DNA of 64,000 nucleotides from Halichondria panicea. Taxonomy: Eukaryota > Porifera > Demospongiae > Suberitida > Halichondriidae. The stretch lies in assembly GCF_963675165.1 (NCBI RefSeq), contig NC_087393.1, positions 480,002 through 544,001 on the forward strand. Reading direction: 5' to 3'. This document shows positions 5,908-18,611 of this stretch, piece by piece. The translations under genes were made by a program, and so were the position numbers. Each line of letters starts with the position of its first letter. Position 1 is the stretch's first letter. A model generated the notes under the pieces. The model was not told where the DNA came from. It did not search any database and was given only the letters and a program-made list of their open reading frames with translations.

Positions 5908-7945
5908 ATGGCTGTCGTGGCCGATCATGCAGTGGTGGAGATGGAGATATCTTTAACTGTGGAGGAGAGGCTGGACAAGCAGAGGTAAGAACTGAGCTAG
6001 ATCTAGCTAGTGTTTGTGATATTAAACTACACTGATGTACATAGCTAGCTATATATCTATAGTAGTGTGATTGTGGACTGTGCAGATTATAATTATAAAT
6101 TGAAGTGTGGAAACACAACTAAGTGGAGTCCCCTCCATGACACCAGTTGTTACTACTAAAACATTATCAAGATTTTATCGAATATTTATAAATGCAGATG
6201 GTACATTGGTGAGGTGACCCAGGAGGTTGCAGAGTCCCTACTCTCCTCCAATAAACAGCCTCACTCCTTCGTGGTCTTCACTCAACCAGACACTCGACAG
6301 TACATTCTCAGTGCAAGGTAAAACAGCTCTGTAACAATTCTATGTACTAACGACTCCTCCTCATCCCCAGGTTTCCACTGGAGGGGTTGGAGGATGGAGT
6401 TATTGAACATCTGGCCATTCGCTGTGAGGAGGGAAGGTGGTGCATCACTGGACAGGTGGGGGACAACTGTACTCTTAACTGTATGTACTCTTAGGGAAGT
6501 TACTTGTCTTGTCGGTACAGTATTGTTCATTCATGTATAGCTTCAATACAATGTCGTGTGTAGGGGGACCTTTAATATGATACTAGTACAGTGAAGGAAT
6601 GCCCCCAGTAATTAATAAAGCATGATATGTGTAGGAGTACACGTTTAATATAATTATTGTTGTTACTATATCAATTTCAATTCCATTTAATTGTTTTGTC
6701 AAAAATAATTAATTTGCTTTCAGTAAAAACCATCACCTTTATTTTGTGTACTAAGTACACTCTGTGTGATATTTATTTCACACTGCACCTGTGTAGACGG
6801 ACGAGTATGATGATGTCATCGAGGCTGTGAACTGTTACGTGTTGACCTTTGACCCTCCACTGATGCCGGCTCTCCAGGGAAAGAGTTTTGAGACTCAGTT
6901 CAGTGTCACTAGTGCACCCCCTGAATATGACAAAGCCAACAGAGTACTAAAGGTAGGAATAATGGTACTGTACTGTTTTAGATGGTCAAATTTCGATTGA
7001 TGGATTCTATAATATTAATCATAGCTTTTAGAATGACCTTTCTAATGATGCGTTTAGGTACAATATTGATAAGTATAATAGATACTTTGGGGAGAGAGTT
7101 TGTCCTTTTGTATGAGCTTAAAAAACACAACTGTGCTGATGGTGCCATGATGAATGACTGATTGGGATGTTGACTCTAGTACTTCCTCTTGATGTAGGAT
7201 GTGCAACATTGACACAGCTAACACAGCACTTAGCAATAATAATAATTGTCAAAACAGTTTGATTGATCTAATAATAGTATTACACATTACAAGAATGTAC
7301 ATGTGTGTGAATCCCCCCCACAGCCCGACATAGCTCCCCTACCAGATATCACCAAAGTCAAAGTAGCCGACAAGAAAGCAGTGGAAGGTATGAGCTCTTG
7401 ATCTTGCTACGGTAATGCTTTGATGTGGTTTCCCTACCCCCCACAGCTCAGAGTGGGCGTATCTCCCCCACTGGAAGAAGAGATAGTGACGATGACAGCG
7501 GTCCTAGAAATAGGGGGAGAAGACGTCCCTCATATATGAACAGGAGCATATGGCTTCGGTACAGCGAGCACCATCGCTGTCATCCTAAGAATGTTTGCTC
7601 AGGTTGCTGCTATAGACCAAAGGAGTGGAGTGGATACAGGTAATGATGCCCTGCAGCTGTAGCTATATAGACACATGCCTATACAATGGCTTAATTGTGT
7701 AGGGACATTCTTCAGTGTGTGTGTGTGTTTCTAGACATGGTTACAAAAGCTTCTTCCTATATACTCTATGCAGAGTTACGCACTCCTCCAAGTGGTACAA
7801 TCCGTGTGGCTCGGGGCCCCTCAGGGCATCGGGTTTGATACTGTTCTGGTTCTTATGTTGGCCTTGTTTTTCTTGTGCTGGTTGCTGGTTTCTTTTAGTA
7901 TATCTTTGCTGTGCTGTGTGTTGCGGTGGCTATGACAGCTCTTAA
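5908..7945 (+). CDS. SH2-like/PPEY/Cys-rich membrane-tail protein, tandem copy 1
   Basis: I recognise no named family. Seven exons join in frame to 288 aa: 5908-5984, 6198-6317, 6371-6455, 6797-6952, 7324-7387, 7447-7639 and 7774-7945. Residues about 27-107 follow the SH2 pattern: WYIGEVTQEVAESLL for the opening WYxGxIT helix, FVVF at the FLVR strand, YILSA, IEHLAI for the HYKI strand, GRWCIT, and a helix YDDVIEAVNCYV. The phosphotyrosine-binding Arg is replaced by Phe53, so ordinary pTyr binding is unlikely. A PPEY motif at 135-138 could bind WW domains. A basic/Ser region, CHPKNVCSGC, then KWYNPCGSGPLR lead into a hydrophobic Cys-rich tail, probably membrane-inserted or palmitoylated. An alternative last exon lies at 9214-9394. 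Role unknown. Confidence 0.8.
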
Positions 7946-8127
7946 ACTTTGTTTCCATGTACTTGTTTGTGTGTTTAATTGTGAAATTGCTTTCATCAAT
8001 TGAATTGCCAGAATTGCATGTCTGTATTCATAGCTATTGCATGTGATAGTCTATAGCCTCCTTCACTGGCCACTCTTCGAGAAAGTGGGGCCTGGGATCG
8101 AGGCTAGCGAGAGCCTTACATTTATTA

Positions 8128-15584: not shown

Positions 15585-18500
15585 ATGGCTGTCGTGGCAG
15601 ATCATGCAGTGGTGGAGATGGAGATATCTTTAACTGTGGAGGAGAGGCTGGACAAGCAGAGGTAAGAACTGAGCTACCTAGAAGCCTTAGCTCAATAACA
15701 TCCTAGTAGTGTCACTGTGGTTATTAGGGTCTAATAATAGGTTGACTGTGCAGATGGTACATTGGTGAGGTGACCCAGGAGGTTGCAGAGTCCCTACTCT
15801 CCTCCAATAAACAGCCTCACTCCTTCGTGGTCTTCACTCAACCAGACACTCGACAGTACATTCTCAGTGCAAGGTAAAACTAATTCTGTATAGAGCTATA
15901 TTAAGTATCCCTGAAAGAGTTTCTGCACATCCATAGTTAATTGTTGGTAATCATAAAAACCCTCACCTCATCCCCAGGTTTCCACTGGAGGGGTTAGAGG
16001 ATGGAGTTATTGAACATCTGGCCATTCTCTGTGAGGAGGGAAGGTGGTGCATCACTGGACAGGTGGGGGACAATAGAACTGTCTCTTTGACAACAGTTTG
16101 TTTTGGATTTTAATGATTGCGTTAATGTTTCACACTGCAACTGTGTAGACGGACGAGTACGATGATGTCATCGAGGCTGTGAACTGTTACGTGTTGACCT
16201 TTGACCCTCCACTGATGCCAGCTCTCCAGGGAAAGAGTTTCGAGACTCAGTTCAGTGTCACTAGTGCACCCCCCGAATATGACAAAGCCAACAGAGTACT
16301 AAAAGTGAGGAGAGTGGCACTGACTGTTGATGACTGACTGTCCATTATTGGGATGTTGACTCTAGACTTCCTCTTGATTCTATTCTATGTGCAACATTGA
16401 CACAGCTAACACAGCACTTAACATGTCAAAACAGTACGATTGATCTATTAGGGCTTTACATGTGTGTGAATCCCCCCCTCCCCCCACAGCCCGACATAGC
16501 TCCCCTACCAGACATAACCAAAGTCAAAGTAGCCGACGAGAAAACAGTGGAAGGTGTGAGCTCTTTGATCTTGCTAGGTAATGCTTTCATGTGGTTTCCC
16601 TACCCCCCACAGCTCAGAGTGGGCGTATCTCCCCCACTGGAAGAAGAGGTAGTGATAATAATGACAGCCATTCTAATATTGCGGCGAGGACAAGGCTTGA
16701 GCAAGCGAACAGGAGTACCTGGCATCGGTACAGCGAGCACCATCGCTGTCACCCTAAGAACGTTTGCTCGGGTTGCTGCTATAGACCACGTACACTAGAT
16801 GAGTGGAGTGGGCATAGGTGGGTGGAGCTGGTAGCCTCCAGCTGTAGCTATAGAGATATGTCTGCAGTACAGTAGGGATGCTGCTCAGTGTGTGTGTGTG
16901 TGTGTGTGTGTGTGTGTGTGTGTGTGTGTGTGTGTGTGTGTGTGTGTGTGTGTGTGTGTGTGTGTGTGTGTGTGTGTGTGTGTGTGTGTGTGTGTGTGTG
17001 TGTGTGTGTGTGTGTGTGTGTGTGTGTGTGTGTGTGTGTGTGTGTGTGTGTGTGTGTGTGTGTGTGTGTGTGTGTGTGTGTGTGTGTGTGTGTGTGTGTG
17101 TGTGTGTGTGTGTGTGTGTGTGTGTGTGTGTGTGTGTGTGTGTGTGTGTGTGTGTGTGTGTGTGTGTGTGTGTGTGTGTGTGTGTGTGTGTGTGTGTGTG
17201 TGTGTGTGTGTGTGTGTGTGTGTGTGTGTGTGTGTGTGTGTGTGTGTGTGTGTGTGTGTGTGTGTGTGTGTGTGTGTGTGTGTGTGTGTGTGTGTGTGTG
17301 TGTGTGTGTGTGTGTGTGTGTGTGTGTGTGTGTGTGTGTGTGTGTGTGTGTGTGTGTGTGTGTGTGTGTGTGTGTGTGTGTGTGTGTGTGTGTGTGTGTG
17401 TGTGTGTGTGTGTGTGTGTGTGTGTGTGTGTGTGTGTGTGTGTGTGTGGGGTCCTCAGGGCATTAGCGTTGATACTGTTTCTGGCTCTTATGTCCTGGTT
17501 GCTGATTCGTTTTAGTGTATCTTTGCTGATTTATTATCACCTAAAGTAATTTCATTGTACGCCTGCCTCAATGAAATTCACATTCACAAAATCCTTGACA
17601 TTGGATCCACGGAATTCAAGTTATGGCAGCCGAAAGAATCCCCAAACCATTGAATGAACGGAGTGTAGTTGAACATCTTTCAACAGCCATAACTTGAGTA
17701 TCGTTGATCCAATGTCAAAAATGTTATGATTTCCTGAAAGCTTAGAAAGAGACCTTTCAAATGATGTGTTGCAATCCAAAATTTTGTTGGGGCTCTAATT
17801 TGTCATTTTTCGGCCTTGGACCATGGGCTATTATTCATGGTATCGCCAAATTGGCGAATACTTTTATCTCTCAAATATGATTTTTGATGACACCATTTCA
17901 ACTATTTTTTTCTAAGCTTTCAGAAAATCCTAACATTGGATCCACGGGGGAATTCAAGATATGGCAGCTGAAAGAATCCCCAAACCATTGAATGAACGGA
18001 GTGTAGTTGAACATCTTTCAACAGCATTAACTTGAGTATCGTTGATCCAATGTCAAAAATGTTATGATTTTCTGAAAGCTTAGAAAGAGACCTTTCAAAT
18101 GATGTGTTGCAATCCAAAATTTTGTTGGGGCTCTAATTTGTCATTTTTCGGCCTTGGACCATGGGCTATTATTATTCATGGTATCGCCAAATTGGCGAAT
18201 ACTTTTTATCTCTCAAATATGATTTTTAACGACACCATTTTAACAAATTTTTTTTAAGCTTTCAAAAAATTTGACTTGTTCTGTAAGGTTGCTCTATTCA
18301 TTCATAGCTACTGTAATGTGAGAGCTTACAACAAATGACTTATTATTATGAGTATTATTGCCTCTATCTAACTCCTCCCCCACACACACACACACATCAG
18401 CGACAGCCTCGAGTATGATCGACATTGGTGGAGTCCAAAGGGGTCAGGGCCACTGAGGGTGCTAGGACTGCTCCTGTTGTGGTTGTTCTGTTCTCCATGC

Positions 18501-18611
18501 ATCGGCTGCCACATATGGCATGCAGAGGGAACTGGATATTGTCTACTGTGGTGTTGTTGCTCTTTGTGGTTGGACTTTGATGCATTTAATGATGATGATG
18601 ATGACTCCTAA
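15585..18611 (+). CDS. SH2-like protein, tandem copy 4
   Basis: Exons 15585-15661, 15754-15873, 15978-16062, 16149-16304, 16490-16553, 16613-16817 and 18401-18611 join in frame (305 aa). The start (MAVVADHAVVEMEIS) and its upstream sequence match copy 1, so this copy keeps the native 5' end. The SH2-like domain has the same FVVF substitution, and PPEY is present. The last exon is of the 7b type: HWWSPKGSGPLR, a hydrophobic Cys-rich segment, then an acidic end (DDDDDS). The intron before it contains the 561-bp GT tract, a broken 7a exon and foldback repeats. Confidence 0.72.
16888..17448. repeat. Perfect (GT)~280 tract
   Basis: 561 bp of GT dinucleotide without a visible interruption, inside the last intron of SH2-like copy 4. 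It ends directly in surviving exon 7a sequence, so it has replaced the acceptor and first half of that exon. Pure alternating GT of this length can adopt Z-DNA and is expected to vary in length; assembly length may be approximate. Confidence 0.95.
17449..17547 (+). pseudogene. Truncated last exon 7a of copy 4
   Basis: GTCCTCAGGGCATTAGCG through TTTTAGTGTATCTTTGCTG matches the middle and end of exon 7a of copies 1 and 2. The splice acceptor and KWYNPxGSGP codons are absent, replaced by the GT tract. Not expected to be used. Confidence 0.7.
17592..18270. repeat. Foldback repeat subfamily A, tandem partial plus two copies
   Basis: The right end of one element, one complete copy (about 17665-17990) and a further copy (about 18000-18270), all head-to-tail, in the last intron of copy 4. 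Period is about 340 bp, as in the 2641-3305 pair. Confidence 0.75.

Follow-up and report, generated by a model that had tools for sequence, protein, structure and literature searches.

The arginine of the FLVR motif is conserved in all but 3 of the 120+ human SH2 domains (PMC7530234). At its position, betaB5, human RIN2 and TYK2 (His) and SH2D5 (Trp) have lost it, and the SH2 domains of the JAK kinases are described as binding without phosphotyrosine (PMC7530234); the interaction of the tensin2 SH2 domain with DLC-1 is likewise phosphotyrosine-independent (PMC3134462). The PPxY protein CYYR1 binds WWP1 (PMC11399591), and, together with other PPxY-bearing membrane adaptors of NEDD4-type ligases (Shisa-like), it is Cys-rich and membrane-linked (PMC11399591, PMC10531659). 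Here we describe four tandem genes of the sponge Halichondria panicea whose predicted proteins combine an SH2-type domain, a PPxY motif, and a hydrophobic, Cys-rich tail. The genes occupy positions 5908-18611 of the window, a stretch of 64,000 nucleotides (contig NC_087393.1, positions 480,002 to 544,001 of the forward strand). As far as sequence comparison can tell, they are an undescribed sponge protein family: its parts are of known kinds, and the searches made found their layout nowhere else.

Each of the described systems resembles the sponge proteins in one part. SHP-2 (PTPN11, C-terminal SH2 domain), SHP-1, and BTK give the best sequence matches among solved structures along the entire domain, but they possess the FLVR arginine where the sponge family has Phe, Tyr, or His at betaB5, with alphaA2 never basic, and the sponge models contain no phosphatase or kinase part. 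RIN2, TYK2, and SH2D5, which share the loss at betaB5, are different proteins; likeness to them beyond the SH2 domain was sought only by Pfam and PDB searches. CYYR1 and the Shisa-like adaptors, in contrast to the sponge proteins, have no SH2 part, and the sponge PPxY precedes the hydrophobic tail. Pfam has models for the LITAF, Shisa, and CYYR1-like families, none of which matched the family proteins scanned at expectation values (E) up to 10. The best explanation, which we favor tentatively and with slightly more doubt than trust, is a demosponge family of small membrane-tethered adaptors, in which the PPxY would recruit a WW-domain (NEDD4-type) ligase and the SH2 fold would hold a partner without phosphotyrosine.

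Gene models and family layout

The four plus-strand genes, with the first start at 5908 and the last stop at 18611, were modeled as six shared exons followed by one last exon each, separated by GT-AG introns, and none of the four frames is interrupted between ATG and stop. The spliced products of c1A, c2A, and c3B agree in every residue with the H. panicea RefSeq proteins P0001, P0003, and P0005, and c4B is longer than the RefSeq protein P0002 by two residues, at the last acceptor. An earlier note on this DNA, made from the letters alone, had recognized four adjacent genes with a common protein layout, which these models bear out with two corrections: the protein start lies 11 residues further on in copies 2 and 3, and exon 2 of copy 3 uses another donor and ends 6 nucleotides (nt) later, as in P0005. 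The motifs FVVF, PPEY, and CHPKNVCSGC, described as common to the copies, are present in all four models. The segment KWYNPxGSGPLR had also been assigned to every copy, which holds only in part, with copy 4 having HWWSPKGSGPLR and form c2A having KWYDPRGSGPLR.

Relatives at 39-72% identity keep the family layout. Twelve proteins, the four H. panicea copies among them, are near full length and underlie the counts given below. Those with a named source come from demosponges only, Halichondria (Suberitida) and Amphimedon (Haplosclerida), and 7 of the 12 (five from the source 'lgn', two from 'jgi') are presumably also sponge proteins. The Amphimedon queenslandica member, LOC109580472 (P0008), has the same layout at 43% identity and scores 22.7 bits against Pfam SH2; it differs from the H. 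panicea copies in having His at betaB5 and PPAY, and its identifier occurs in no paper of the literature searched. One source names it 'SH2 domain-co...', the other names given to relatives being 'uncharacterized protein' and 'hypothetical protein'. Five relatives derive from contigs of 956-1484 nt that hold the whole coding sequence, and are therefore probably spliced transcripts.

Protein searches with copy 1B, the family alignment, and residues 118-289 of P0007, which reach only proteins sharing 5-residue words, gave no match outside the family layout except fragments. The Pfam scan at E up to 10 returned, among the proteins scanned, only SH2 and a chance-level ChitinSynthase_IV_N (E 8.2), and a literature search of titles and abstract openings found no description of the family and none of five locus identifiers in any paper. 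Within the reach of these searches, the view that no named family matches the layout is upheld. Searches of the H. panicea assembly (131,455,214 bases, 39 contigs) with P0001 and P0007 yielded at least the four genes and, on contig C14, at least some further pieces. These include, at about 2780-4640 of G000:C14:3261000-3269000 (L024), a degenerate fifth copy, consisting of minus-strand exon pieces with stops and an inverted, plus-strand tail piece, KWYNPCGSGPLR.

SH2 homology

Against the Pfam SH2 model, with its cut-off of 21 bits, copy 1 reaches 16.7 bits (E 0.0077) over residues 27-104 and copy 3 reaches 15.3 bits (E 0.022). The cut-off is passed by three of the 12 relatives (P0004 and P0014 with 25 bits, P0008), while six fall below it (P0001 16.8, P0005 15.3, P0007 20.3, P0010 18.4, P0011 20.4, P0015 18.1). 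P0002 and P0003 match at E up to 10, with no score figure printed, and P0006 has no match in the search at E up to 10.

Comparisons with solved structures gave clearer results. With the single sequence of copy 1, SHP-1 was the best match (E 0.00049). A ten-member profile matched SHP-2 with a whole-sequence E of 2e-8, which is a sum over two SH2 domains (C-terminal, E 8e-6; N-terminal, E 35), and BTK, which has one SH2 domain, with an E of 1.1e-7. When aligned by hhalign with five SH2 domains from the same genome, the family reached 94.3%, or 94.5% with 12 members. In 100 column shuffles the value did not exceed 1.9%; such shuffles destroy all column order and hence test chance only. The five domains are the top five of 71 genome matches, which introduces a bias towards ordinary SH2 domains, and the family alignments are shallow, with an effective number of sequences (Neff) of about 2.3. 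Among nine members, 14 of the 87 positions of the SH2 region are invariant.

By these comparisons the SH2 homology of the family is real, weak by single-protein score and stronger by profile. The earlier assignment of an SH2 fold to residues 27-107 thus stands as homology by sequence, backed by profile, hhalign, and shuffles: copy 1 is sub-threshold in Pfam, and the family profile and hhalign matches are significant over the whole domain.

Phosphotyrosine pocket

We compared the pocket positions of the 12 relatives with those of the five SH2 domains from the same genome, all of which have Arg at alphaA2, betaB5, and betaD6. In the family, Gln (5) and Glu (3) prevail at alphaA2, the other members having Asn, Ile, Thr, or Asp, and betaB5, the position of the FLVR arginine, is occupied by Phe (5), Tyr (5), or His (2); Arg or Lys occurs at neither position in any of the 12. 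At betaD6, P0015 alone has Arg and the other 11 are non-basic. The earlier note had reported Phe in place of the FLVR arginine in each of the four copies. Phe is indeed found there and in P0007, with Tyr or His in the other relatives, and the aligned residues at all three positions (12/12, 12/12, and 11/12 without a basic residue) indicate a family-wide loss of the pocket, wider than had been seen from the four copies.

The SH2 fold might nevertheless still read a phosphorylated ligand, through the His at betaD4, other residues, or a back-side pocket, as may be compared with SPT6 and the C-terminal SH2 domain of p120RasGAP. The betaD4 His, retained in 11 of 12 relatives, would be suited to such a role, as would the betaB5 His (2/12) and betaD6 Arg (1/12), and non-canonical phosphate binding has precedents (PMC7530234). 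However, with alphaA2 basic in none of the 12 and betaB5, His apart, occupied by Phe or Tyr in 10 of 12, we consider this explanation quite improbable.

PPxY linker and Cys-rich tail

WW domains bind PPxY motifs. The PPEY that the earlier note had seen in all four copies is confirmed in them, and PPxY is kept in 12 of 12 relatives; behind it come PDIAPLP and a Ser-Pro site. Pairwise identity among nine members (one of the four H. panicea copies kept) averages 97% for PDIAPLP, 71% for KWYNPxGSGPLR, 46% for the SH2 part, and 43% for the tail. The hydrophobic, Cys-rich end is present as described: hydrophobic windows (19-residue, over 1.6) are confined to the tail in all ten proteins tested, in which it is the sole hydrophobic segment, and it contains 5-10 Cys. 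Such a segment could be a single span, a hairpin, or a surface anchor.

HPKN, upstream of this segment, is invariant (12/12) and Cys212 is present in 11 of 12 relatives, a degree of conservation that would also suit an endosomal protein of the LITAF kind. In such a protein, CHPKN...CC and the terminal Cys cluster would bind zinc on either side of a membrane-lying helix, the PPxY would serve ubiquitin-dependent sorting, and the SH2 part would be secondary. The likeness to LITAF would lie in a single hydrophobic stretch preceded by Cys/His and followed by Cys, and in a PPxY upstream of it. This is very improbable in our view, since Pfam gives only SH2 and the chance-level match for the proteins scanned.

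Constraint on the four copies

All four H. panicea copies group together in a single clade (support 100/99). Over their six pairs, each with few changes, the ratio of nonsynonymous to synonymous substitution rates (dN/dS) spans 0.05-0.18 for the SH2+PPEY part, against 0.36-0.77 for the remainder of the protein, a clear sign that the SH2+PPEY part is under constraint. Between copies, 115-120 of the 120 aligned nt of exon 2 are alike, and intron 5 is 95-98% alike, compared with 61-89% for introns 1-3; the likeness in exon 2 (e.g. 6198-6317) and intron 5 (e.g. 7388-7446) suggests gene conversion.

These values bear on two other explanations. The genes could be decaying duplicates without function in H. 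panicea, as might be read from the relics of an alternative last exon in copies 3 and 4 (see below), the shifted donor of copy 3, the degenerate C14 copy, and dN/dS up to 0.77 outside the SH2+PPEY part. Four frames open from ATG to stop, the low dN/dS of the SH2+PPEY part, and a layout kept in relatives at 39-72% identity make this hardly believable. Alternatively, the proteins could act as decoys or negative regulators, in which the tethered PPxY sequesters WW proteins or drives HECT self-ubiquitination and the pseudo-SH2 domain only stabilizes or dimerizes. CYYR1 offers a model, with PPxY motifs that bind WWP1 and lead to its autoubiquitination and lysosomal degradation (PMC11399591), and in the sponge family the PPxY and the stretch behind it are conserved better than the SH2 part. 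The low dN/dS and the invariant SH2-region positions suggest a binding surface rather than filler, although they are not decisive, and we regard a decoy role as unlikely but to be reckoned with.

Proposed function

In the adaptor reading, which we consider plausible, the N-terminal SH2 fold, with its phosphate-holding basic residues lost, would hold some partner without phosphotyrosine, like the SH2 domains of JAK kinases. The conserved PPxY of the linker would dock a protein with WW domains, the likeliest being a HECT ubiquitin ligase of the NEDD4 type. Through its hydrophobic, Cys-rich C-terminus the adaptor would be attached to a membrane or inserted in it, possibly with the aid of palmitoylation, and its remainder would lie in the cytosol. 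In this way the ligase would be delivered to a membrane partner, possibly a cargo, that the SH2 fold holds. The same genome contains at least three sites (C7:173-178 kb, C7:5.496-5.503 Mb, and C17:5.298-5.302 Mb) at which HECT matches are preceded, on one strand, by WW matches. This is the domain order of NEDD4-type ligases, so that a candidate partner of this type is available.

Several observations weigh against the adaptor reading. Most single-protein SH2 scores are below the Pfam cut-off, and P0006 escapes the model altogether. The His residues at betaD4 and betaB5 leave some phosphate binding conceivable, and P0015 has Arg at betaD6. The tail is among the less conserved parts, and that of P0015 is incomplete, so that the count of 12/12 fails for the tail. 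Finally, the PPxY comprises four residues only, its binding of WW domains being assumed from established knowledge. A sponge family that retains the SH2 domain without its basic phosphate contacts would be a natural test of the role of the SH2 fold without phosphotyrosine in an early-branching animal group, and, if the PPxY works as usual, would link the SH2 fold to ubiquitin ligases at membranes.

Alternative last exons and a 49-bp minisatellite

In each of copies 1 and 2 there are two intact candidates for the last exon, A and B, whose acceptors share one phase; this had been missed before. Copies 3 and 4 have last exon B only, together with relics of exon A (Table 1). Between copies 1 and 2, nucleotide identity is 90% for A-A, 97% for B-B, and 61% for A-B. 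The presence of both exons in two copies and of A relics in the other two indicates that the ancestor had both. The exon-A forms are labelled isoform X2 in RefSeq, which implies that another isoform is annotated; both last exons may be in real use, in which case the protein would exist with either of two tails. In copy 1, the stretch from exon A to the repeat behind it was found to hold no standard poly(A) hexamer, an observation that speaks against a free use of exon A at this site. Upstream of the exon A relic of copy 4, and directly adjoining it, is a GT repeat of about 280 units (16888-17448).

In copies 1 and 2, exons A and B are separated by a minisatellite with a 49-bp unit. The unit aligns with the exon-B acceptor regions of copies 3 and 4 with scores of 29 and 36, which 0 of 1000 shuffles reached (best shuffles, 24 and 29), and it gave no alignment to the exon-A acceptors. 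Since the shuffles did not keep dinucleotides and the match is partly CACACAC, this acceptor likeness is only suggestive. CTGAGA follows ACCAG in 26 of 28 units (19/20 and 7/8), and such units, if joined to exon 6, would read Ser-stop. The minisatellite may be an amplified splice acceptor, possibly a decoy. One could extend this to a scenario in which the SH2 domain of a demosponge membrane adaptor family lost its phosphate chemistry early and acquired a fixed, phosphotyrosine-independent task next to a NEDD4-docking PPxY, and in which the 22 + 9 amplified acceptors tune which tail is chosen in H. panicea and perhaps whether the protein is anchored or soluble; we consider the scenario as a whole distinctly unlikely.

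Table 1. Positions of the four genes and associated elements in the window.
Feature	Position	Strand	Details
Copy 1 (LOC135351011)	5908..9394	+	exons 5908-5984, 6198-6317, 6371-6455, 6797-6952, 7324-7387, 7447-7639, then A 7774-7945 or B 9214-9394; form A = P0001, form B model only
Copy 2 (LOC135351013)	9638..12869	+	exons 9638-9681, 9742-9861, 10178-10262, 10542-10697, 11029-11092, 11151-11337, then A 11461-11623 or B 12689-12869; form A = P0003, form B model only
Copy 3 (LOC135351010)	13103..15274	+	exons 13103-13146, 13220-13345, 13678-13762, 13959-14102, 14352-14406, 14467-14731, last exon B 15079-15274; = P0005
Copy 4 (LOC135351008)	15585..18611	+	exons 15585-15661, 15754-15873, 15978-16062, 16149-16304, 16490-16553, 16613-16817, last exon B 18401-18611; two extra residues at last acceptor relative to P0002
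SH2-type domain, copy 1 (residues about 27-108)	6198..6838	+	across exons 2, 3, and start of exon 4
APPEYDK stretch with PPEY motif, copy 1	6914..6934	+	exon 4; from sequence; PPxY in 12/12 relatives
Last exon A, copy 1	7774..7945	+	KWYNPCGSGPLR and hydrophobic Cys-rich tail
Last exon B, copy 1	9214..9394	+	acceptor phase as A
Exon A relic, copy 3	14794..14856	+	blastn 81.5% over 65 positions, E 4e-11
Exon A relic, copy 4	17453..17528	+	right behind GT array, first part missing; blastn 69% over 94 positions to 1A, 85% over 41 to 2A
49-bp minisatellite, copy 1	8130..9208	+	22 units, between exons A and B; unit like exon-B acceptor region
49-bp minisatellite, copy 2	12246..12682	+	9 units, between exons A and B

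Other features of the window

Downstream of the four genes, an open frame at 22300-23085 matches apolipoprotein L (48.9 bits and E 8e-13 against Pfam ApoL), here in a sponge. A minus-strand open frame of 586 residues at 28428-30188 carries BTB, BACK, and Kelch repeats, apparently in a single exon. Of the minus-strand open frames at 37093-39467, one has an ankyrin match and the next has no Pfam match; the latter, we presume, resembles ANKZF1/Vms1. Two further minus-strand open frames, at 54769-56503, match ubiquitin-specific proteases (UCH).

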